A DNA stretch of 64,000 bases, from contig VFIW01000019.1 of NCBI GenBank assembly GCA_006386115.1, positions 310,001 through 374,000 on the forward strand, given 5' to 3'. The DNA is from Globisporangium splendens. Its lineage: Eukaryota; Oomycota; Peronosporomycetes; Pythiales; Pythiaceae. Of the stretch, positions 18,487-59,916 are shown piece by piece (position 1 is the first letter of the stretch; every line of letters starts with the position of its first letter). The notes beneath the pieces were generated by a model. The model was not told the DNA's origin. It made no database searches and was given only the letters and a program-made list of their open reading frames with translations. The position numbers and the translations under genes are program-made.

Positions 18487-19185
18487 TTAGAGGGTCTTGT
18501 TGGCCGAGTGGAAGTTCTTGACGTTGATCTTGACTTGCTTCATCACGCGCTCGTAGAGCTTTGGGCGGTAGCCGAGTGGGAAGAGCGCCTCCAGCAGCAC
18601 AAACATGGGCGCCGTGATCAGCGCCTGGTCGAGACTGTCGAGGAGCGCAGGCTTGCGGCGCTCAAACACGCCATGACCGATGAACTGCAGGATCCAGGCC
18701 ACGACGTGGATGGGGAGCGCGATCTGCCACGCCGGCACGCCGTAGAGCTCTGGCGCCGCCTTCTCAAAGTAGTTGGCGAACACGTAGATGCAAAAGATCA
18801 TCGCCGCACCAATCGTACCCGCACTGTAGTAGCAAACAGAGACAGCAGTCATAGCATATAAGTCAGTGCACAGTATTGAGAAATAACTATACACGAAGCA
18901 AACAAAGCAGTTGGCTTACAATATGTCGAGCGCCATGTACCACACCATGTAGAGCACGGCCATGGCGGCCGAGTAGTTCATGACCATGTACTGACTGTAG
19001 GGCAAGCCCGCGAGGAACGCCGGCTGCTCCATGAACGGAGCCGTCTGCGCGAGGATCATCACGCCTGTGATGAAGATCGGCCAGATGCACGCGAAGTGGA
19101 TGAGCTGGTTGGTCTTGTTGTCGTGGTACGACATGTAGAACGTCACCTGCTTCTCCAGGTTGAAGCGGTCGGAGATGCGGCCCAT
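18487..19185 (-). CDS. Mpo1-like (DUF962) membrane protein, putative 2-hydroxy fatty acid dioxygenase
   Basis: Two exons (18920-19185 and 18487-18823) around a 96-bp GT-AG intron give 200 residues starting MGRISDRFNL. The family signature is clear: YHDNKTNQLIHF (residues 20-31) with two histidines, then in exon 2 PIHVVAWILQFIGHGVFERRKPAL, followed by the LLEALFPLGYRP tail. Yeast Mpo1 is an ER-membrane Fe2+-dependent dioxygenase that shortens 2-hydroxy fatty acids by one carbon in phytosphingosine breakdown, and the conserved histidines are its proposed metal ligands. Four or five hydrophobic helices fit that topology. Length is close to the fungal proteins. The in-frame region upstream of this ATG is low-complexity (Pro/Ala) and is not counted as coding. 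An initiator-like element lies at 19260-19275. Confidence 0.85.
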
Positions 19186-19259
19186 CACTGCTGCTACTGC
19201 TGCTGCTGGCGGGTGTGGCTGTGGACTCGGGAACTGCTGCTGCACGTGCTGAACGTGGA

Positions 19260-19275
19260 AGAAAGCGAAGTGAGC
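19260..19275 (-). promoter_or_regulatory. oomycete initiator-like element of the Mpo1-like gene
   Basis: GCTCACTTCGCTTTCT matches 13 of 16 Inr consensus positions and lies about 75-90 bases upstream of the ATG at 19185. Confidence 0.5.
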
Positions 19276-19904
19276 GCACGGAAGCCGAGACCGCGGCGAG
19301 GGAGTGCCAATTGCATTTGCGGCGTCATGCTGCCTTAGCAAATGCGTGGCAGTCTTGTTTGTTCCATCATCACTGGCATTTTGCCCAATCAAAGCGATAA
19401 CTGGTGCTGATGATGGTATTTAGAATCTTTTATTGGTGAAAAGCAGAGACCGAAAGAAAACGTGAACAGCTGCATTTTAGCCAACGGTTGGATTTCGGGT
19501 TGCTAAAGAGATGGGATTGGTGGAAATGATGTCCGCTTCGTAATCACGACGTCACCGGATTTTGCCATTCGACCCACATACGTAAGTTGAAGAACAAGTG
19601 CAAACTCAACCTGTTTAACACGAGGTCTCCATACTGAAATCAAGTGCATACTCAACATGTGCTTGCGAGTGTTGAGTCCAAAATGGCATCGAAAGCGTGT
19701 GCAGTAGCAGGAAGGATTGCATTGGCTGATTTGCTGGTTCCTATGCAGCCACCTTGTTCGCTGGCTGTTCAAATGCGATATCGTACACACAAGAGTCAAG
19801 TCACCACGGCGGATGCACGATTTCTTTTTCTTCATATAGATAGGGAGCTACTTTGCACTATTTACTTGATACAGATCACATGCATATTGTTTCCCTCCTC
19901 TTGG
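19276..19904. other. intergenic, no gene supported
   Basis: Short region between the Mpo1-like gene and the end of the FHA-CHAT-STAND gene. No coding signal seen. Confidence 0.5.
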
Positions 19905-22703
19905 TTAATCCATCATCATGCCACCATTCGCGCCGTTCGACTCGTCGACGGGGATGTCGTCCATGACGCACTCGTTCAGGCGACCGGCGAGGTCCGCCAC
20001 GCGCTTCGGGATGCCCAAAGTCGCCAGCAGTGCAGGATGCGATGCGATCAGCTCGACTTTGTCCACAGGCGGCGCCCCATTGCCTGCTGTTGGCGCTGCC
20101 GCTGGCACTGGCGGCCTCGCGCGCTTCAGCTCGTCGACGCGAATGGGGCGGCTCACGAGACTGAGCAGCATCTTCGCGGCCATCTTGGCCGAGAACCGCG
20201 AGAGCGTGTACACGCGTTCACCGTGGCCCGCAACAGCGCCGTCCGTGCTAATGGACGTGCGCGCCGTGAGCACGATCTTCAACGACGCGTTGTTCGTGAG
20301 CAAGTCTGAGAGGAACACGCGAAAGCGGTTGCGGCGCACGTCGCTCTGTAGCAAGTAGTCGCAGCCATCGAGCACCAGCAGCAGCTGCTGTGCATGGAAC
20401 TCGACGCGCGCCTTGTGCTGCGCCAAGTGGTCCTTGATCAGTGACTCGAGTTTGCCGAGCACGCGGCACTTGGCGCTCTTGATGTCGATGTGACGCCGCA
20501 CCATGCTCTGCTGATCGTCTTTCTCGTCCTGTGCGAGCTTCGTAATCGAGAAAATGCGCACGCCACCTTCGGATGTGATCCGCGGTCCGACGTAGTTGGC
20601 TACGGCGTGAGCCACGGCAGTCTTGCCGATGCCTTCCTCGCCGCAGATCGTCACGAGCCGCGTGATTCGTGACTGCGTCAGCATCAGCGCCAGGCAGATC
20701 TTGTACACCTCAATGGATCGATTGCAAAAGCCCTGGCAGATCGCCGGGAGGTCATCGAACCACAGCTTCGGGTACTTTTTCAGCTTCAATGGACCTAACT
20801 CCATCGTCTTCCCAGCTTCGACGGCCGCCAACGGGAAAATGATCTCCGAGTGATCGCCGCCTTCAGGCAGTAGCAGGAACTTCTCGGCCACTTCCATGGG
20901 ACCGCGGATGTTTGGCGATTTGGCGACAGCCTGCTGGGCGATCGTGAAGCTCGCGCCGACGGACTTGCCAGTGGCCAGCGCCAAGTAGAACGACCGCGTG
21001 AACTCGATGGCCGCGTAGTCCTCGATCTTCTGGTTCGTGCGTACCCCAATGACGTGCGGGATGCCACAAGCAACGAACGCGTACGCCAGTGGCGCCGACG
21101 AGCACGCCGAGACAAACGCCAGACGCAGTGTTGACTCTCCCGAGTCGCTGCCGCCAGCCGAGAACAGTTCCTGTAACGAACTGTGTGGAATGGGATGTAC
21201 AAGCCCCATGCCGTCTTCAAAGTACAGGTGCTTCTCGTCGCCATGGCCCGAGAAATGCAGCGCGCGACAGCCGATCGTGACGATTGTGCGGAAATTCTCC
21301 GTGTTGGCGAACTTGGCACACACATTGATCTGCCGAGGGTACTGGTACACCTTTGAACCTGTGATCGCCGTCATAGCGCCAGTCGAGCCAGCAGCAGGGC
21401 GTTTCGCGTACTTGGACGCCTCGATGAGGCTCTGCTTGAGGATCGAGTACTCACGCTTGACGTCCAGCTCGGCGATCGGATGGTACTTGCCCTGGATGTC
21501 TTTGCCCACGAGTGGCGACGAGAACAGCACGCCGAGCGTGTACTCCTGGAAATCACGGCCCTGCTGCGACTTGTCTTGCGAGTCCAGCATACTCAGTCTG
21601 CCGTGGCTCTTGCTGTTGTCGCGCTCTGCCGCGACCTGCGCGCCACGCACGTGCGGGTCCTCGACCACGTACCCGAGCAGCACGTTGCCCTGTCGCGACG
21701 ACAGCAGCGTGATCTTCTGTCCGTCCTGGAGCTTGTGCCTCTTCTCCTTCTGCAGCTGGATGCCGTCGATGCGGATCCCGTTCGTGCTCTTGTCCGTGAT
21801 GTACACGCCGACGGTATGCGTGAGCGGGTCCGTGATACACTCGACGACACAGTGCACGCGACTGAGCTTGATCGGGTCGATACCCGACGACTTTTTGTCG
21901 AAAATGTTGACGTAGCTGTCGCGTCCCAACTTGACGATCGATCGCTGCCGGTGGATCTCGATGCGGTACAGGTCGTGCTTCTCGAGGTCGTTCTTCTGGT
22001 ACGCCGTAATCGCGCGGTCAACCTCCGGATGCAGCACGAGCCGCATGACGCACATGTTCGGGCTCTCTTCCAGCGTCTGCGTGCACTCCTGCGTGTTCTG
22101 CTGCGAGATCGAGAGCACCTCCATGAGGTTCTGCGAGCCCTCTTTCATCGCCTGGTACTGCTCTTCGGGCGTCATGTAGTCCGGACCGAGCAGACCATCG
22201 CTGCTCTTGCCCTCGCGAAGCATGTTGCTGTTTCGCGCTGCGCTCATGAACAGCAGTGCGTCGCGGTTCCCACTCGCACTGCCATTCACTCCAACGGTCG
22301 GCGCAAACGGCGACGCACGCAATCGTTTCGCTGCGGTCGCGCCATCTCCCAGACCACCATCGTCGTCCGGATCGCGCGGCGTCTTGTTCGACGACGAAGA
22401 CGAAGACGCAAACGATGAGAATGACGCCGCGCCTGCAAACCCAGCAAACCCGTTCGTGGTCATTCTCGTCACAGGAGAGCCATACGCGGCGACCGCCGAC
22501 CATCGCTGCAGCACCACGGACGCATCCAACGCGTCGCCTTGTTCCTCGTGAGCGTAGCCGTCGTCGTCCGTCGCGACGAAGCGGCGCTTGCGCGTGTCTA
22601 GACCAGCAGGGCGAAGGCACGCGTCTGCAGCAAATGGCGAGAGCGGTGCGCCGCTGTTATTGTGGCGCGCGTCGCGCGGCGTGTGGAGCTGTTCGGCAAC
22701 CAT
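19905..22703 (-). CDS. FHA - CHAT (caspase-like) - STAND ATPase fusion protein
   Basis: The intronless gene encodes 932 residues from the first ATG at 22703; the frame is open 12 codons further up but only from a TTG. Order of parts: a low-complexity N-terminus (1-180, Ser/Asp/Ala rich, with basic KRR near 40 and AAKRLR near 125); an FHA domain (about 246-346) with the GRDS, SRVHC and TDKSTNG motifs that bind phosphothreonine; a CHAT caspase-like protease domain (about 385-630) with the catalytic His in HFSGHG (His487) and Cys in FVSACSS (Cys534); and a C-terminal P-loop NTPase resembling NB-ARC/NACHT, with Walker A GEEGIGKT (688-695), Walker B LLLVLDGCD (Asp779) and a KIVLTAR strand (809-815). 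Both protease residues and the P-loop lysine are intact, so an active, nucleotide-gated, phosphoprotein-sensing protease is inferred. No LRR, WD40 or TPR sensor follows the ATPase. The neighbours do not indicate a pathway. Confidence 0.85.
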   Translation of the reverse strand: MVAEQLHTPRDARHNNSGAPLSPFAADACLRPAGLDTRKRRFVATDDDGYAHEEQGDALDASVVLQRWSAVAAYGSPVTRMTTNGFAGFAGAASFSSFASSSSSSNKTPRDPDDDGGLGDGATAAKRLRASPFAPTVGVNGSASGNRDALLFMSAARNSNMLREGKSSDGLLGPDYMTPEEQYQAMKEGSQNLMEVLSISQQNTQECTQTLEESPNMCVMRLVLHPEVDRAITAYQKNDLEKHDLYRIEIHRQRSIVKLGRDSYVNIFDKKSSGIDPIKLSRVHCVVECITDPLTHTVGVYITDKSTNGIRIDGIQLQKEKRHKLQDGQKITLLSSRQGNVLLGYVVEDPHVRGAQVAAERDNSKSHGRLSMLDSQDKSQQGRDFQEYTLGVLFSSPLVGKDIQGKYHPIAELDVKREYSILKQSLIEASKYAKRPAAGSTGAMTAITGSKVYQYPRQINVCAKFANTENFRTIVTIGCRALHFSGHGDEKHLYFEDGMGLVHPIPHSSLQELFSAGGSDSGESTLRLAFVSACSSAPLAYAFVACGIPHVIGVRTNQKIEDYAAIEFTRSFYLALATGKSVGASFTIAQQAVAKSPNIRGPMEVAEKFLLLPEGGDHSEIIFPLAAVEAGKTMELGPLKLKKYPKLWFDDLPAICQGFCNRSIEVYKICLALMLTQSRITRLVTICGEEGIGKTAVAHAVANYVGPRITSEGGVRIFSITKLAQDEKDDQQSMVRRHIDIKSAKCRVLGKLESLIKDHLAQHKARVEFHAQQLLLVLDGCDYLLQSDVRRNRFRVFLSDLLTNNASLKIVLTARTSISTDGAVAGHGERVYTLSRFSAKMAAKMLLSLVSRPIRVDELKRARPPVPAAAPTAGNGAPPVDKVELIASHPALLATLGIPKRVADLAGRLNECVMDDIPVDESNGANGGMMMD

Positions 22704-39406: not shown

Positions 39407-42400
39407 TTATCTCTTTTGGTGGTTGATGTAACGCAGTGAGAGCGCCGCGAGCACACGGAAGAGCACAATGAACGCAATGATGACGAAGAAGTCGCGCCAG
39501 ATGTCAGAGTGCTTCATGAGAAACACGCTCTCGATGTACTGCTTCACGGTCATTCCCGCTGGCATCGTTGGAGGGGTGTTCAGCATCGCTTGGCAGCCGA
39601 TCTCACTGGTGTCATCGCCGCAGTCACCAAAGACGATCGACGTCAAGATCGAGAGCGTGTACTTCTGAGGCGTGATGTAGTACAGCCACTTGTATCCCGT
39701 AGGAATCGCATCACCAGGCGGGTTGAACCCCATGAACAAGAAGAAGATCGAGTTCAAGAGCACACCGATGATCGCAGCCACTTCGACACTCGGCAACGCG
39801 TACGACAGGAACTGCCCAATGTACGTTTGCAAGAGCACGTGCAAGGACGTGTTGAGCCAGTAGAAGAAGAAGCGGCTCACGCCAGTGAAGCCAACCATCG
39901 GGAAAAACACGGCCGTGAACAAGAACGAGCTGATAAACACGTACGGGATCTCCGCCACGGTCGAACCCACAAAGTACCACAGAGCGTTGTACGTCTGCGA
40001 AGCGCGCTCCCGGTAGAACGAAGCACGCTCCTCCGAAGCGATCGGAAGCACACTGTTGAACGAGATGAGACCGATAAACACGGTAGTCATGAACACCATA
40101 CCAGCCCCCGCGTTGATGCCTTGGTATGTCTTGTACTCAGCGTCAATGAAGACGAGACCGAACAGCAACGCCAAAATCAGGGAAATGATGAATCGAGTCA
40201 GGTTGTACGACGGAGTGCGCCAGTACATGTCCAGGAAACGCTTCACCAAGAACTTCATCTGGGTCGCTTCCGTCGCAGCACGCTTTGAACCAAACTCAAG
40301 AGCTGGAATCAATGGCGAAGGACGAGACACACCCTCCTTCTCCAACTCGGCATCCAACAGCACCTTGTTCTCGCTGGCCTTAAAAAGAGCAACAAAGTCT
40401 GTTTCTTGGCCACTCGTGTTCCCCACACCTGCGCCGATCACTTCGAGCATCCACGTCGCAGGGTTGTATCCGTCTTCCAACGGAGCCACACTCTCCACAC
40501 GCTCAAAGTACTTGATCAACTCGCTCGCGTTCTTGCCGAGGTCACCGAAGAAGACGGTCTCACCGCCACGCTTCAGCAACAACAAACTGTCGAACAACAT
40601 GAACACTTCCGTCGAAGGCTGGTGAATCGTGCACACAATCGTACGGCCAGTGTTCGCCACCTTGCGAACACCGTCCATGATCACCTTGGCCGAGCGAGCA
40701 TCCAGACCACTCGTTGGTTCATCCAAGAAAATCACACTAGGCTGGGCAGCCAGCTCCACACCGATGGTCAGACGCTTCATTTGCTCCACGGAGCTGCCGC
40801 GGATAATCTGGTCGGCGATCGGGTTCAGGTCCAGCAAGTCCAGACACTCGTTCACGGAATCGAACTTCTTGCTGTCTGGCACGTCGGCGCTTTGGCGCAA
40901 GAACGCACTGAACGTCAGCGCTTCGCGGATTGTAGACGCCTCCGAGTGGATGTCCATTTGCTCACAGTAGCCGGTGCAACGACGAATCGCGAGGTCAGTG
41001 GCTTCGTAGCCGTTCAACAGGATCTGGCCGCGGATCTGACCGCCAGTCTTGCGTCCAGCAATCACGTCCATCAGTGTCGTCTTGCCAGCACCGGAGGATC
41101 CCATCAACGCAGTCATCGTACCTGGATGCGCGAAGCCACTGATTCCCTTCAGCAAGTCGATCGTTTCCTTCGCGTTCGCTGGGTCTGGCACCGAGTACCA
41201 CAAATCCTTGAATGCCACGGTCACAGGGATGAAGTTCTTCTCACGCTGTTCATTCACTTCCAAGATCACAGTGCTGCCAGACGGCGAACCCTTTGGTGTC
41301 TGCATGATACCGTACTCATCCGTAACAGCGTCATCGTCACTGCCACCGATCGTGATGTTTTCTGGGCTCTCGAATCGGTGGTACTCCAACGCGAGGAACG
41401 ACAAGAACATGAAGAAGACGTACGAGAACACCATGAACGCGGCACCATACCAAACCCACTCCTTCTCCGATGGCACGTCGAACAAGCTCAAGGAGTACTC
41501 GCCCATTTTCTTGCCGAAAGGACCACAGTAGTCCACTCCCTCGTAGATACACTCTTCGAAGCGCTCGTTGCGGTATTGGTTTACAGCAAGACTGCGCACA
41601 CACCACGCGATCGGGTTGATCCAGTAGATCCAGATGAAATAGTCTGGGATCTGGTCCTTTGCAATAACGAAACCAGCAAACAGAATGTAGAATAACACAG
41701 AGACCATCGAGATCGGCTTCGCCACGTGAAGATCTGGCGACATGGAGGAGAGGAAGAAGAACCAGGCAGCAAACGCCAAGTTTGTCAGGAACAGCATCAG
41801 CTCGTAGATCAGGTAAGCACCCGCCGTTGGAACGAAGCCGCACATCCAGTACACCAGCGTGCCGAACAGCACACTCTCCATCAGCGCCAGAGGCAATTGA
41901 CTCACGGAACTCGACAGCACGTACGACGCCGTTCGGAAGAAGTTGGCGCCTCGCTGTTTGTAGAACACCTCACGCGCAGCCAGGAACGTTGGGATCTGCG
42001 ACGCCTGACCCAGTGCCAAGAAAAGCACCGCAGCGAAGATGATACCCATCACGACTTGCGCGTCCTTGACGTCGAACTGGTAGAACACACTCGCATACAA
42101 GAGCCCCATGATGATCACCATCAGCGCTCGACCTTTCAAAAATGCAGTGTTACGCATCGTCACCTTGGTCTGGCGGGCCATGAGCGTGCGCGTGCTCTCC
42201 CAGAACCCCTGGTGGAACTGAGGAAGAGGGTCCACGTGCTTCTCCTTGTCATGCAGCAGGACCGGGTCGTAAGGACCATGAAGGTCTGCGAGCATGGCGT
42301 CGTGAACCGACGAGCGCATAAACACGTCGGCAAAGTCGCTGGCGCGGCGCGGGATCACCTTTCCTGGCATCTCCACTTGGTATTGATACTGCTGCTCCGT

Positions 42401-43468
42401 ACCGAGATCAAGCAAGAAATCAGCCACGTCGCGACGAGGAGGGCACACGAAGCCCAGGTCGCGGAAGTACCCCACGATCTGTTCGCGAGGACCGTGGTAC
42501 ATCACGTGACCTTCGTTCAGAATCATCACGTCGTCGAACAACGCAAACACTTCAGGCGAAGGCTGCAGGAGAGCGATCACGATCGTCTTGCGGAACTTCT
42601 TGGCGATGCTGCGCTGGGTCGTGATGATGTCGAACGTCGCCGCACTGTCCAGACCCGTACTGATCTCGTCCATGAACGTCACGTACTTGTTGCCGAACTG
42701 CATCTCGCCCGTCGTCACACGCTTGCGCTCGCCGCCCGAGACACCACGAAGCATCGCATCACCGACAATGGTGTCCTGACAGTTGTCGAGACCCAGTTGC
42801 TGGATGACGATGTCAGGGTAGTGCTTGTACAGCGCACGAGCAGCTTCAATGGCGATCTTGTTTTCTTCAGGAGTGCCGTTGGCCAAGTGGCTCTCGGCAC
42901 GCTCCGAGAGCTCTCCACCGCAACACGCATGTGCGAACTCGAGGGTCTCCTTCACGGTCAGCGTTGGGAAGTGCTTGTCACGCTGGGTCACGTACGACAC
43001 GAACTGAGGGAGGCGCTTGAGGAGCTCGTTCTGGGTCGTGCCGTTGTACGTCATCTCGCCTTCCACGTGCACGTTCTTTCCTTGTGGGAAACGACCGCTG
43101 AGGATCTTCATGAGCGACGACTTGCCCGAGCCAGGTTGGCCCAAGAGCAACGTGATGGTACCGGGCTTGAACACGCTGTTGACGTTGCTGAGGATCTGCT
43201 TCTTGACGACGCGTTTCTTGGCACCCACCTTGCTGAAGCTCTTCTTGAGGTGGTTCGCGATCGTCGGGAGCTCCGACTTGGCGTCGCCATCATCCACAAC
43301 CGTGACATCGGCGTGGATGGACAAGTTCTTGACGCGCACTTCCATCTGCGGCAGGGACTTGCCGAGCGCCACCTCGACCTTGCTCGAGATGTGGTCGTGG
43401 AGCGCTTCAGAACCGTGCGCCATCAACGCCATGACACCAGTGCCCGAAGTGTTGGTCCCGCCGGTCAT
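39407..43468 (-). CDS. PDR-type ABC transporter (ABCG, full size), copy 1
   Basis: An intronless gene of 1353 residues from ATG 43468, with the reverse order NBD-TMD-NBD-TMD typical of pleiotropic drug resistance transporters. NBD1: Walker A GQPGSGKSS (110-118), signature VSGGERKR (243-250), Walker B VTFMDEIS (263-270). TMD1 spans about 445-695 and contains the large last loop (ECIYEGVDYCGPFG). NBD2: Walker A GSSGAGKTT (790-798), a PDR-type degenerate signature SVEQMKR (893-899), Walker B VIFLDEP (912-918). TMD2 runs from about 1110 to the end. PDR proteins use ATP to expel lipophilic toxins and lipids at the plasma membrane. It is nearly identical to the copies at 47571-51648 and 54941-59011 and divergent to the former. 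A 15/16 initiator match is at 43548-43563. Confidence 0.95.
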   Translation of the reverse strand: MTGGTNTSGTGVMALMAHGSEALHDHISSKVEVALGKSLPQMEVRVKNLSIHADVTVVDDGDAKSELPTIANHLKKSFSKVGAKKRVVKKQILSNVNSVFKPGTITLLLGQPGSGKSSLMKILSGRFPQGKNVHVEGEMTYNGTTQNELLKRLPQFVSYVTQRDKHFPTLTVKETLEFAHACCGGELSERAESHLANGTPEENKIAIEAARALYKHYPDIVIQQLGLDNCQDTIVGDAMLRGVSGGERKRVTTGEMQFGNKYVTFMDEISTGLDSAATFDIITTQRSIAKKFRKTIVIALLQPSPEVFALFDDVMILNEGHVMYHGPREQIVGYFRDLGFVCPPRRDVADFLLDLGTEQQYQYQVEMPGKVIPRRASDFADVFMRSSVHDAMLADLHGPYDPVLLHDKEKHVDPLPQFHQGFWESTRTLMARQTKVTMRNTAFLKGRALMVIIMGLLYASVFYQFDVKDAQVVMGIIFAAVLFLALGQASQIPTFLAAREVFYKQRGANFFRTASYVLSSSVSQLPLALMESVLFGTLVYWMCGFVPTAGAYLIYELMLFLTNLAFAAWFFFLSSMSPDLHVAKPISMVSVLFYILFAGFVIAKDQIPDYFIWIYWINPIAWCVRSLAVNQYRNERFEECIYEGVDYCGPFGKKMGEYSLSLFDVPSEKEWVWYGAAFMVFSYVFFMFLSFLALEYHRFESPENITIGGSDDDAVTDEYGIMQTPKGSPSGSTVILEVNEQREKNFIPVTVAFKDLWYSVPDPANAKETIDLLKGISGFAHPGTMTALMGSSGAGKTTLMDVIAGRKTGGQIRGQILLNGYEATDLAIRRCTGYCEQMDIHSEASTIREALTFSAFLRQSADVPDSKKFDSVNECLDLLDLNPIADQIIRGSSVEQMKRLTIGVELAAQPSVIFLDEPTSGLDARSAKVIMDGVRKVANTGRTIVCTIHQPSTEVFMLFDSLLLLKRGGETVFFGDLGKNASELIKYFERVESVAPLEDGYNPATWMLEVIGAGVGNTSGQETDFVALFKASENKVLLDAELEKEGVSRPSPLIPALEFGSKRAATEATQMKFLVKRFLDMYWRTPSYNLTRFIISLILALLFGLVFIDAEYKTYQGINAGAGMVFMTTVFIGLISFNSVLPIASEERASFYRERASQTYNALWYFVGSTVAEIPYVFISSFLFTAVFFPMVGFTGVSRFFFYWLNTSLHVLLQTYIGQFLSYALPSVEVAAIIGVLLNSIFFLFMGFNPPGDAIPTGYKWLYYITPQKYTLSILTSIVFGDCGDDTSEIGCQAMLNTPPTMPAGMTVKQYIESVFLMKHSDIWRDFFVIIAFIVLFRVLAALSLRYINHQKR

Positions 43469-43547
43469 TGCGAACAGATGACGGTTCCAATTTCGAGCGA
43501 GGTGCTGCTGAAGCTGTTTACACCCGCGGTGTTGCTCAGGTCAAAGA

Positions 43548-54940: not shown

Positions 54941-57900
54941 CTACCTCTTTTGGTGGTTGATGTAACGCAGCGAGAGCGCCGCGAGCACACGGAAGAACAC
55001 AATGAACACAATGATGATGGAGAAGTCGCGCCAGATGTCAGAGTGCTTCATGAGAAACACGCTCTCGATGTACTGCTTCACGGTCATTCCCGCTGGCATC
55101 GTTGGAGGGAGATTCTGCATCACTTGGCACCCCAGTTCGCTGGTGTCATCACCACAGTGACCAAACATAGTCGATGTCAAGATCGAGAGCGTGTACTTCT
55201 GAGGCGTGATGCTGTACAGCCACTTGTATCCCGTAGGAATCGCATCTCCAGGCGGGTTGAACCCCATGAACAAAATGAAGATCGAGTTCAAGAGCACACC
55301 GATAATCGCAGCCACTTCGACACTCGGCAACGCGTACGACAGGAACTGCCCAATGTACGTTTGCAAGAGCACGTGCAAGGACGTGTTGAGCCAGTAGAAG
55401 AAGAAGCGGCTCACGCCAGTGAAGCCAACCATCGGGAAAAACACGGCCGTGAACAAGAACGAGCTGGAGAAGACGTACGGGATCTCCGCCACGGTCGAAC
55501 CCACAAAGTACCACAGAGCGTTGTACGTCTGCGAAGCGCGCTCCCGGTAGAACGAAGCACGCTCCTCCGAAGCGATCGGAAGCACACTGTTGAACGAGAT
55601 GAGACCAATGAAAAGTGTCGTCAAAAAGACCATACCAGCCCCCGCGTTGATGCCTTGGTATGTCTTGTACTCTACCTCAAGGAACACGAGTCCAAGAAGT
55701 AAGGCCAAGATCAGTGACACAAAATAACGAGTCAGGTTGTACGACGGAGTGCGCCAGTACATGTCCAGGAAACGCTTCACCAAGAACTTCATCTGGGTCG
55801 CTTCCGTCGCAGCACGCTTTGAACCAAACTCAAGAGCTGGAATCAATGGCGAAGGACGAGACACACCCTCCTTCTCCAACTCGGCATCCAACAGCACCTT
55901 GTTCTCGCTGGCCTTAAAAAGAGCAACAAAGTCTGTTTCTTGGCCACTCGTGTTCCCCACACCTGCGCCGATCACTTCGAGCATCCACGTCGCAGGGTTG
56001 TATCCGTCTTCCAACGGAGCCACACTCTCCACACGCTCAAAGTACTTGATCAACTCGCTCGCGTTCTTGCCGAGGTCACCGAAGAAGACGGTCTCACCGC
56101 CACGCTTCAGCAACAACAAACTGTCGAACAACATGAACACTTCCGTCGAAGGCTGGTGAATCGTGCACACAATCGTACGGCCAGTGTTCGCCACCTTGCG
56201 AACACCGTCCATGATCACCTTGGCCGAGCGAGCATCCAGACCACTCGTTGGTTCATCCAAGAAAATCACACTAGGCTGGGCAGCCAGCTCCACACCGATG
56301 GTCAGACGCTTCATTTGCTCCACGGAGCTGCCGCGGATAATCTGGTCGGCGATCGGGTTCAGGTCCAGCAAGTCCAGACACTCGTTCACGGAATCAAACT
56401 TCTTGCTGTCTGGCACGTCGGCGCTTTGGCGCAAGAACGCACTGAACGTCAGCGCTTCGCGGATTGTAGACGCCTCCGAGTGGATGTCCATTTGCTCACA
56501 GTAGCCGGTGCAACGACGAATCGCGAGGTCAGTGGCTTCGTAGCCGTTCAACAGGATCTGGCCGCGGATCTGACCGCCAGTCTTGCGTCCAGCAATCACG
56601 TCCATCAGTGTCGTCTTGCCAGCACCGGAGGATCCCATCAACGCAGTCATCGTACCTGGATGCGCGAAGCCACTGATTCCCTTCAGCAAGTCGATCGTTT
56701 CCTTCGCGTTCGCTGGGTCTGGCACCGAGTACCACAAATCCTTGAATGCCACGGTCACAGGGATGAAGTTCTTCTCACGCTGTTCATTCACTTCCAAGAT
56801 CACAGTGCTGCCAGACGGCGAACCCTTTGGTGTCTGCATGATACCGTACTCATCCGTAACAGCGTCATCGTCACTGCCACCGATCGTGATGTTTTCTGGG
56901 CTCTCGAATCGGTGGTACTCCAACGCGAGGAACGACAAGAACATGAAGAAGACGTACGAGAACACCATGAACGCGGCACCATACCAAACCCACTCCTTCT
57001 CCGATGGCACGTCGAACAAGCTCAAGGAGTACTCGCCCATTTTCTTGCCGAAAGGACCACAGTAGTCCACTCCCTCGTAGATACACTCTTCGAAGCGCTC
57101 GTTGCGGTATTGGTTTACAGCAAGACTGCGCACACACCACGCGATCGGGTTGATCCAGTAGATCCAGATGAAGTAATTTGGGATCTGGTCTCTGACGATC
57201 CCAAAACCTGAGAACAAGATGAAAAACAGCACTGAAACCATTGAGATCGGCTTCGCCACGTGAAGATCTGGCGACATGGAGGAGAGGAAGAAGAACCAGG
57301 CAGCAAACGCCAAGTTTGTCAGGAACAGCATCAGCTCGTAGATCAGGTAAGCACCCGCCGTTGGAACGAAGCCGCACATCCAGTACACCAGCGTGCCGAA
57401 CAGCACACTCTCCATCAGCGCCAGAGGCAATTGACTCACGGAACTCGACAGCACGTACGACGCCGTTCGGAAGAAGTTGGCGCCTCGCTGTTTGTAGAAC
57501 ACCTCACGCGCAGCCAGGAACGTTGGGATCTGCGACGCCTGACCCAGTGCCAAGAAAAGCACCGCAGCGAAGATGATACCCATCACGACTTGCGCGTCCT
57601 TGACGTCGAACTGGTAGAACACACTCGCATACAAGAGCCCCATGATGATCACCATCAGCGCTCGACCTTTCAAAAATGCAGTGTTACGCATCGTCACCTT
57701 GGTCTGGCGGGCCATGAGCGTGCGCGTGCTCTCCCAGAACCCCTGGTGGAACTGAGGAAGAGGGTCCACGTGCTTCTCCTTGTCATGCAGCAGGACCGGG
57801 TCGTAAGGACCATGAAGGTCTGCGAGCATGGCGTCGTGAACCGACGAGCGCATAAACACGTCGGCAAAGTCGCTGGCGCGGCGCGGGATCACCTTTCCTG

Positions 57901-59011
57901 GCATCTCCACTTGGTATTGATACTGCTGCTCCGTACCGAGATCAAGCAAGAAATCAGCCACGTCGCGACGAGGAGGGCACACGAAGCCCAGGTCGCGGAA
58001 GTACCCCACGATCTGTTCGCGAGGACCGTGGTACATCACGTGACCTTCGTTCAGAATCATCACGTCGTCGAACAACGCAAACACTTCAGGCGAAGGCTGC
58101 AGGAGAGCGATCACGATCGTCTTGCGGAACTTCTTGGCGATGCTGCGCTGGGTCGTGATGATGTCGAACGTCGCCGCACTGTCCAGACCCGTACTGATCT
58201 CGTCCATGAACGTCACGTACTTGTTGCCGAACTGCATCTCACCCGTCGTCACACGCTTGCGCTCGCCGCCCGAGACACCACGAAGCATCGCATCACCGAC
58301 AATGGTGTCCTGGCAGTTGTCGAGACCCAGTTGCTGGATGACGATGTCAGGGTAGTGCTTGTACAGCGCACGAGCAGCTTCAATGGCGATCTTGTTTTCT
58401 TCAGGAGTGCCGTTGGCCAAGTGGCTCTCGGCACGCTCCGAGAGCTCTCCACCACAACACGCATGTGCGAACTCGAGGGTCTCCTTCACGGTCAGCGTTG
58501 GGAAGTGCTTGTCACGCTGGGTCACGTACGACACGAACTGAGGGAGGCGCTTGAGGAGCTCGTTCTGGGTCGTGCCGTTGTACGTCATCTCGCCTTCCAC
58601 GTGCACGTTCTTTCCTTGTGGGAAACGACCGCTGAGGATCTTCATGAGCGACGACTTGCCCGAGCCAGGTTGGCCCAAGAGCAACGTGATGGTACCGGGC
58701 TTGAACACGCTGTTGACGTTGCTGAGGATCTGCTTCTTGACGACGCGTTTCTTGGCACCCACCTTGCTGAAGCTCTTCTTGAGGTGGTTCGCGATCGTCG
58801 GGAGCTCCGACTTGGCGTCGCCATCATCCACAACCGTGACACCGGCGTGGATGGACAAGTTCTTGACGCGCACTTCCATCTGCGGCAGGGACTTGCCGAG
58901 CGCCACCTCGACCTTGCTCGAGATGTGGTCGTGGAGCGCTTCAGAACCGTGTGCCATCAACGCCGTGGCATCAGTGTAGATAAACTCCAATTGCTTGGCT
59001 TTGACAGTCAT
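54941..59011 (-). CDS. PDR-type ABC transporter (ABCG, full size), copy 3
   Basis: An intronless gene of 1356 residues. The start is set at ATG 59011 (MTVKAKQLEF); the frame is open 14 codons further up, but copies 1 and 2 have no such extension and only the ATG at 59011 gives a comparable N-terminus. Domain order and motifs are those of copy 1: GQPGSGKSS, VSGGERKR, VTFMDEIS, GSSGAGKTT, SVEQMKR, VIFLDEP. It differs from copies 1 and 2 mainly in patches of the membrane domains: FSGFGIVRDQIPNYF in TMD1, TRYFVSLILALLLGLVFLEVEY in TMD2, and the last extracellular loop (MFGHCGDDTSELGC). Those patches could alter substrate range while the ATP sites are unchanged. The probable role is plasma-membrane export of xenobiotics. 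Confidence 0.95.
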   Translation of the reverse strand: MTVKAKQLEFIYTDATALMAHGSEALHDHISSKVEVALGKSLPQMEVRVKNLSIHAGVTVVDDGDAKSELPTIANHLKKSFSKVGAKKRVVKKQILSNVNSVFKPGTITLLLGQPGSGKSSLMKILSGRFPQGKNVHVEGEMTYNGTTQNELLKRLPQFVSYVTQRDKHFPTLTVKETLEFAHACCGGELSERAESHLANGTPEENKIAIEAARALYKHYPDIVIQQLGLDNCQDTIVGDAMLRGVSGGERKRVTTGEMQFGNKYVTFMDEISTGLDSAATFDIITTQRSIAKKFRKTIVIALLQPSPEVFALFDDVMILNEGHVMYHGPREQIVGYFRDLGFVCPPRRDVADFLLDLGTEQQYQYQVEMPGKVIPRRASDFADVFMRSSVHDAMLADLHGPYDPVLLHDKEKHVDPLPQFHQGFWESTRTLMARQTKVTMRNTAFLKGRALMVIIMGLLYASVFYQFDVKDAQVVMGIIFAAVLFLALGQASQIPTFLAAREVFYKQRGANFFRTASYVLSSSVSQLPLALMESVLFGTLVYWMCGFVPTAGAYLIYELMLFLTNLAFAAWFFFLSSMSPDLHVAKPISMVSVLFFILFSGFGIVRDQIPNYFIWIYWINPIAWCVRSLAVNQYRNERFEECIYEGVDYCGPFGKKMGEYSLSLFDVPSEKEWVWYGAAFMVFSYVFFMFLSFLALEYHRFESPENITIGGSDDDAVTDEYGIMQTPKGSPSGSTVILEVNEQREKNFIPVTVAFKDLWYSVPDPANAKETIDLLKGISGFAHPGTMTALMGSSGAGKTTLMDVIAGRKTGGQIRGQILLNGYEATDLAIRRCTGYCEQMDIHSEASTIREALTFSAFLRQSADVPDSKKFDSVNECLDLLDLNPIADQIIRGSSVEQMKRLTIGVELAAQPSVIFLDEPTSGLDARSAKVIMDGVRKVANTGRTIVCTIHQPSTEVFMLFDSLLLLKRGGETVFFGDLGKNASELIKYFERVESVAPLEDGYNPATWMLEVIGAGVGNTSGQETDFVALFKASENKVLLDAELEKEGVSRPSPLIPALEFGSKRAATEATQMKFLVKRFLDMYWRTPSYNLTRYFVSLILALLLGLVFLEVEYKTYQGINAGAGMVFLTTLFIGLISFNSVLPIASEERASFYRERASQTYNALWYFVGSTVAEIPYVFSSSFLFTAVFFPMVGFTGVSRFFFYWLNTSLHVLLQTYIGQFLSYALPSVEVAAIIGVLLNSIFILFMGFNPPGDAIPTGYKWLYSITPQKYTLSILTSTMFGHCGDDTSELGCQVMQNLPPTMPAGMTVKQYIESVFLMKHSDIWRDFSIIIVFIVFFRVLAALSLRYINHQKR

Positions 59012-59916
59012 TGCAAATGCTGGCCGTTCTGCTGATGCTGAGATGTGCCGCACTCGGTTGTCTGGCTCGGATGAAATTCTGAAATGAAGTCTTTGAAAGC
59101 GAAGGGGGCTATTGACGAGATGCGCCGCCGCCGCTTGCCTGAATCAAAGGATTCTGAAATGACATCATCTGAGGGCGAAGCGTGCTGCGCAGCGATGGAC
59201 GACGATTCGACGGAGTTCAGAGGCGACATACACGAAAGAGAGCAAGTCGTTGCGCGTCAACCCTTGCAGGTGCTGACGGTGGGTCCAAGACTCGTCATTG
59301 ATTGGCTAATTGGGAGCGGTACTGCTCACTCGATTACGGAAAGCAGTAATCACTCAGGATTATTCGTTAAGTGCGGAAACGAATGTAGCACGTACTTACA
59401 ATTTTATCTGCAAGTACGCGTTCCACTCGATTTTCAAAAATCGAGGTGAGTGTGACAAACCACGTATCCTATCTACATATAACAAATGCGTTCAATAGAT
59501 TCTATGTTGAAATGACCACACATGTCTTTGATGATATCTATTATACAATGGTCTGCTTCAAATAGCGCTTGGATGTAAGGACATGCATCAGAAGTTGTCC
59601 GCATTTGAATGAGCCAGTTGCAAGTTCGACCCTTTTGCAGTTAGTGTACCATGTTGCTGGGCTCAAAGAAAGCTCAAAAGCTCGCGTTTACAGAGCTGCA
59701 AAAGGCAGCAGCAGCCATATAACAATTTGTTCAATTTCTACACCTCATTGATTCTCAATTGCAAGAAGTGTCCATCTAAAGCAACCATTACTGGTGCGAT
59801 CTGATGTCGAGCTCACGAAAGCGGAATAACGAAGTGAGTAGATCAAGAATTCAATATATGATCGAAAATACAAGCCGTATGCAGCAATGAAAACTGGACG
59901 CTACAATGTCAACAAC
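59012..59916. other. intergenic between ABC copy 3 and sugar transporter
   Basis: Holds the upstream region of ABC copy 3 and the 3' flank of the sugar transporter. A 121-codon plus-strand frame at 59084-59449 overlaps a minus-strand frame and has no motif. No gene is called. Confidence 0.5.
59074..59089 (-). promoter_or_regulatory. oomycete initiator-like element of ABC copy 3
   Basis: CTTCATTTCAGAATTT matches 13 of 16 Inr consensus positions about 65-80 bases upstream of the ATG at 59011. The upstream TCCARTGGCTC block seen for copies 1 and 2 is not present here. Confidence 0.5.

Follow-up and report, generated by a model that had tools for sequence, protein, structure and literature searches.

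Animals link DNA damage to caspases via several proteins, and the CED-4/CED-3 apoptosome and the PIDDosome are built from separate animal proteins joined by death-fold adaptors. The SAVED-CHAT protease is not known to have an FHA domain or an ATPase. The FHA, CHAT and NACHT domains are each known, and excerpts of the literature describe CHAT-bearing NLRs in fungi; moreover, a passage of PMC8195603 lists FHA among the domains attached to bacterial STAND proteins. No paper on an FHA-CHAT combination was found in the open-licence PMC literature, and the portions of that literature covering the CHAT domain and oomycetes yielded nothing on the protein described here. We analyzed a window of 64,000 nucleotides from the oomycete Globisporangium splendens (contig VFIW01000019.1, positions 310,001 to 374,000), in which a single gene encodes an FHA, a CHAT and a NACHT domain in one chain, hereafter the window protein. 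Our tentative reading is a phosphorylation-gated, probably nuclear caspase-like protease that follows the activation logic of Chk2/Rad53.

An intact gene conserved among oomycetes

The reading frame runs uninterrupted on the minus strand from the ATG at 22703 to the TAA at 19905 and encodes 932 residues. An in-frame stop codon lies upstream of the ATG, and the starting residues are identical to those of the nearest known relative, a Globisporangium ultimum protein of 92% identity, in agreement with the intact frame claimed in the preliminary description. Its further claim that the gene is intronless is supported by the co-linear orthologues, and the motifs and coordinates that it quoted proved correct; His487, Cys534, GEEGIGKT and LLLVLDGCD were verified against the DNA.

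Three protein searches, in each of which only the 8000 or so candidates with the most words in common were scored, yielded 47 orthologue rows, the query among them, after seven further matches to other CHAT or STAND proteins were set aside. Among the 46 other orthologues, 32 rows carry an organism label and 32 of 32 are oomycete; other stramenopiles may have the gene as well. The gene occurs in Globisporangium, Pythium, Phytophthora, Nothophytophthora, Peronospora, Hyaloperonospora, Peronosclerospora, Albugo, Saprolegnia, Achlya, Thraustotheca and Aphanomyces; one of the rows (P0023) is from the mycoparasite Pythium oligandrum. The search of oomycetes for an equal architecture, as proposed earlier, found it shared by orthologues from independent genome projects, and given the many such projects a pseudogene or artefact was rejected. 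Identity to the window protein is 52-94% for the 22 aligned orthologues and 33-36% for eight Saprolegniales rows, which argues that the architecture is not due to chance. For many rows the precomputed Pfam columns show two domains instead of three; the motifs are nonetheless present. The source names of these rows are “FHA domain-containing”, “hypothetical”, “unnamed”, “uncharacterized” or a bare locus name. Albugo, Peronospora and Hyaloperonospora are obligate parasites, and the presence of the gene even in these genera fits a core role. In the G. splendens genome, a similarity search found one full-length copy.

Modular structure of the window protein

The N-terminus combines basic motifs, an SQ/TQ cluster and the FHA domain. 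A basic motif, in the window protein a putative nuclear localization signal (NLS), precedes the FHA domain in 42 of 44 orthologues, against 15.4 expected from shuffles. By definition, an SQ/TQ cluster domain has three or more SQ/TQ within 100 residues; here four lie within 19 residues, and in 40 of 45 rows the 60 residues preceding the FHA domain contain three or more. The cluster sits in a low-confidence stretch of the structure model. In a 23-row alignment, it forms a conserved island in an otherwise poorly aligned N-terminus and adjoins the FHA domain, as in Chk2. The FHA match (E 3.4e-8) scores 34.2 bits, against a curated cut-off of 20.7. A phosphothreonine pocket of FHA domains consists of GR, SxxH and NG, and the window protein has all three, which form a putative pocket. 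R261 is found in all 45 rows that cover its position, and S281, H284 and N308 are each found in 45 of 46; the exceptions are the truncated rows P0036 and P0042.

The CHAT domain follows, with a Pfam match (PF12770) over residues 466-600 of E 5.7e-8 and 33 bits, compared to a curated cut-off of 24. From the whole-protein model, whose mean confidence is low (55.3), the FHA and CHAT parts alone were used; the main fold evidence is a separate 545-residue model with a confidence of 84.3. Structure prediction, proposed earlier as a check, gave a caspase-like fold holding the His and Cys motifs of the putative peptidase. SAVED-CHAT (PDB 8tl0) scores well above separase as a structural match (18.5 versus 11.6), and a sequence search of the PDB with the CHAT part alone gave no credible match. 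The dyad is present in all rows having both columns except P0047, a second, diverged Achlya copy (Achlya hypogyna) that also has a gap at the CHAT start and a single SQ/TQ site.

The C-terminal NACHT core (PF05729; E 9.4e-8) scores 32.5 bits against a curated cut-off of 26.7. A viral fold library gave matches to AAA+-type ATPases and to unnamed proteins, and one match was named after an NLR. Only 33 residues follow the GxP proline of the adjoining helical subdomain, and at most 54 in any of the 47 rows, too few for a winged helix, which we therefore regard as absent; the corresponding stretch of P0038, a CHAT-NACHT-TPR protein, has no counterpart in the window protein. Hence, of the STAND label given in the preliminary description, the NACHT core and the first helical subdomain stand, whereas the winged helix does not. 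That description was right that no LRR, WD40 or TPR follows the ATPase: the Pfam scan gave none and there is no room for C-terminal repeats, and the precomputed Pfam columns of the 46 other orthologues list no repeat domain. Having neither winged helix nor repeats, the window protein is not a canonical STAND protein or NLR.

Features of the window gene and of related genes in the genome. Positions without a locus name are those of the window.
Feature	Residues	Position	Strand	Basis or remark
Complete open reading frame, 932 codons plus stop, single exon		19905..22703	-	Stop-free reading; co-linear orthologues
Putative NLS, basic motif RKRR	38-41	22581..22592	-	Orthologue comparison
Second basic motif, KRLR	126-129	22317..22328	-	Orthologue comparison
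SQ/TQ cluster (Q after S190, S200, T204, T208)	190-211	22071..22136	-	
FHA domain with flanks (Pfam core 258-333)	215-352	21648..22061	-	Profile and fold matches
Second SQ pair (S375, S379), FHA-CHAT linker		21564..21581	-	Less conserved than the 190-211 cluster
CHAT caspase-like protease domain	388-625	20829..21542	-	Pfam and structure model
Predicted catalytic His	487	21243..21245	-	46/46 orthologue rows with column
Predicted catalytic Cys	534	21102..21104	-	45/46 orthologue rows; Val in P0047
NACHT NTPase core	682-848	20160..20660	-	Pfam and fold
Walker A, GEEGIGKT	688-695	20619..20642	-	K694 in 45/45 rows with column
Walker B, LLLVLDGCD	774-782	20358..20384	-	D779 and D782 in 43/43 rows with column
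Helical subdomain with HPxL...GxP motif	880-912	19968..20066	-	
C35, CHAT-NACHT-TPR gene, 1455-codon open frame		L021 2089-6453	+	All three domains above cut-off
C153, CHAT and P-loop frame apparently spliced to SH2 domain		L022 1578-4409	-	DNA reading
C129, SAM, then CHAT across probable introns		L023 600-3610	-	DNA reading
FHA protein, FHA and flank 28% identical to window gene		L019 3037-3729 and L020 2319-3011	- and +	Contigs C138/C37

Related genes and kinases in the genome

The assembly searched comprises 53 Mb and contains, by similarity, three other CHAT genes (C35, C153 and C129), two of which were also found by Pfam family search. In C153, the apparent intron of 87 bases has GT-AG ends (GTAAGT and TTTCTAG) in phase 0; the SH2 match has an E of 7.9e-8, and the NACHT match, at 19.2 bits, lies under the cut-off of 26.7. 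The CHAT match of C129, at 20.3 bits, does not reach its cut-off of 24; in neighbouring frames, inspection by eye showed motifs resembling those of NACHT (GAPGIGKS, LLVLDKVEE, LPLAIRV). Judged by gene structures read from the DNA, C153 is apparently a phosphotyrosine-reader version, and C129 a probable SAM version, of the CHAT-NACHT engine, which suggests one engine with exchangeable readers. NCBIfam gave weak matches far under cut-off and nothing else. In a prokaryote genome collection, a search with P0038 that targeted close relatives only gave 22 stretches fitting a pattern, none of which was confirmed.

An ATR-type kinase gene is present, with FAT and UME within one open frame; the TAN domain of ATM had no match in the genome, nor did the search control give any. 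FHA proteins gave 19 Pfam matches, some on apparently duplicate contigs, in a search that missed the window gene; the relative on C138/C37 perhaps represents two haplotypes. A crude motif search for a Chk2-like FHA-kinase found no kinase motif in 13 FHA loci and three further loci, with no positive control and with exon-split genes escaping it. Because of that missing control, and because the FHA family search missed the window gene, we do not claim that a Chk2-like kinase is absent.

Within the window, an Mpo1-like (2-hydroxy-palmitic acid dioxygenase) frame lies just downstream of the gene (18916-19392, minus strand), and two long open reading frames with PDR-type ABC transporter domains lie at 39410-43540 and 54944-59143, both on the minus strand.

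Proposed mechanism and alternatives

The present analysis suggests how such a protein might work, building on the domains, the fold, their conservation, the cluster and the ATR-type kinase gene. We propose that at rest the NTPase of the protein would restrain the protease. The SQ/TQ cluster would be phosphorylated by a PI3K-like kinase, the best candidate found in the genome being ATR, and the resulting phosphothreonine would be bound in trans by the FHA domain of another molecule, joining two or more chains. The NACHT ATPase, in its ATP state, would stabilize this assembly, in which the CHAT domains may be activated by proximity and cleave a target, with cell-cycle arrest or cell death as the possible outcome. 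The kinase-triggered proteolytic switch of the preliminary description is partly supported, by the anatomy, the conservation and the ATR-type gene; the identity of the kinase, FHA binding of the cluster, oligomerization, proteolytic activity, nuclear location, target and outcome are what we infer. Such an arrangement suggests that kinase signals are wired directly to protein cutting in oomycetes. In a more specific version, about which we are more doubtful, the protein would be a single-chain DNA-damage-activated protease in which the SQ/TQ cluster and FHA domain assemble CHAT via NACHT, so that an ATR/ATM signal leads to proteolysis, in a family that swaps its readers (FHA for phosphothreonine, SH2 for phosphotyrosine, SAM or TPR for assembly).

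Several observations weigh against a Chk2-like gating of the protease. The N-terminal total of SQ/TQ is not in clear excess over shuffles. The pocket residue G260 is replaced in 6 of 45 rows, five of which are Aphanomyces. The best FHA matches by fold and profile are of the Chk2/Rad53/Mek1 type but tied with other FHAs, kinesin FHAs included. Moreover, T204 is lost in 9 of 9 Saprolegniales rows, and a Ser-Pro site right beside the cluster, S214, is Ser/Thr in 96% of the 23 aligned rows and could be the real trigger. The last two points favour a phospho-scaffolded protease, in which the FHA domain would bind a phosphothreonine of a partner, any kinase (cell cycle, stress or casein kinase) could act, and the cluster would serve other readers or turnover. 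Binding to partner proteins in trans is common for FHA domains, and other FHA proteins exist in the genome, including the relative of the window FHA region. We consider this alternative rather unlikely; against it stands the conserved cluster directly adjoining the FHA domain.

A death switch in immunity or allorecognition, comparable to fungal CHAT-NLR/gasdermin systems or bacterial CHAT defence proteases, would share the kinds of protease and ATPase, and excerpts of PMC12881547 and PMC10197012 place fungal CHAT-bearing NLRs in gasdermin death pathways. The sister gene C153 weakly matches the PADLOC SAVED_CHAT model (E 2.7e-4), whereas the window protein has no PADLOC match and was rejected as a bacterial defence protein; P0043 and the C35 frame gave none either. 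The lack of sensor repeats, the one full-length copy and the identity among the 22 orthologues also speak against this reading, as does the lack of a gasdermin match in the genome, though the search control gave none either. Overall, we find it improbable.

About equally improbable, in our view, is a chromosome-segregation or meiotic protease, acting as a separase helper or in a meiotic checkpoint. The genome has a separate separase match (C149, E 8.5e-34), and a search for Peptidase_C50 matched elsewhere in the genome and not in the window protein up to E 10 (HMMER filters on), so that separase identity was rejected. The fold scores favour SAVED-CHAT over separase, Mek1 is tied with Chk2, and PCH-2 is one of many AAA+ matches. 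A catalytically idle scaffold or gene-prediction artefact is highly improbable: degenerate versions exist, as in P0047, but every other row with both columns keeps the dyad and independent genome projects share the architecture.

Were the proposed mechanism true, the oomycete lineage, which includes important plant and animal parasites, would link damage to proteolysis in one polypeptide, which combines the front half of Chk2 with a caspase-like protease and with an ATPase of the apoptosome type. It would then be possible to test outside animals how damage-triggered proteolysis arose, and to see how a type of protease known chiefly from bacterial defence could have turned into a checkpoint switch. 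We know of no function of a CHAT protease in the oomycete lineage, which would thereby gain one.

Comparison with known systems

As in Chk2, Rad53 and Mek1, the FHA domain of the window protein comes after an SQ/TQ cluster (for Chk2, excerpts of PMC4296918), but the effector differs, being a caspase-like protease with a NACHT ATPase in place of a kinase. Lacking a Pfam kinase match, the window protein was rejected as a member of the Chk2/Rad53 family. SAVED-CHAT differs in its SAVED front end, which, according to passages of PMC11417357, reads cyclic oligoadenylates in type III CRISPR. The CHAT-NACHT-TPR proteins (P0038 and the C35 gene) share the CHAT-NACHT core, with 28-34% identity to the window protein, but have TPR repeats after the core and no FHA domain; P0038 apparently has a winged-helix-like stretch in between. 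The fungal gasdermin-controlling CHAT-NLRs also combine CHAT and an NLR-type ATPase in a single chain, as described in the same two partial sources, but often have repeat sensors and gasdermin gene neighbours, whereas the window protein is free of repeats. Compared to the CED-4/CED-3 apoptosome and the PIDDosome, it holds sensor, protease and ATPase in one chain.
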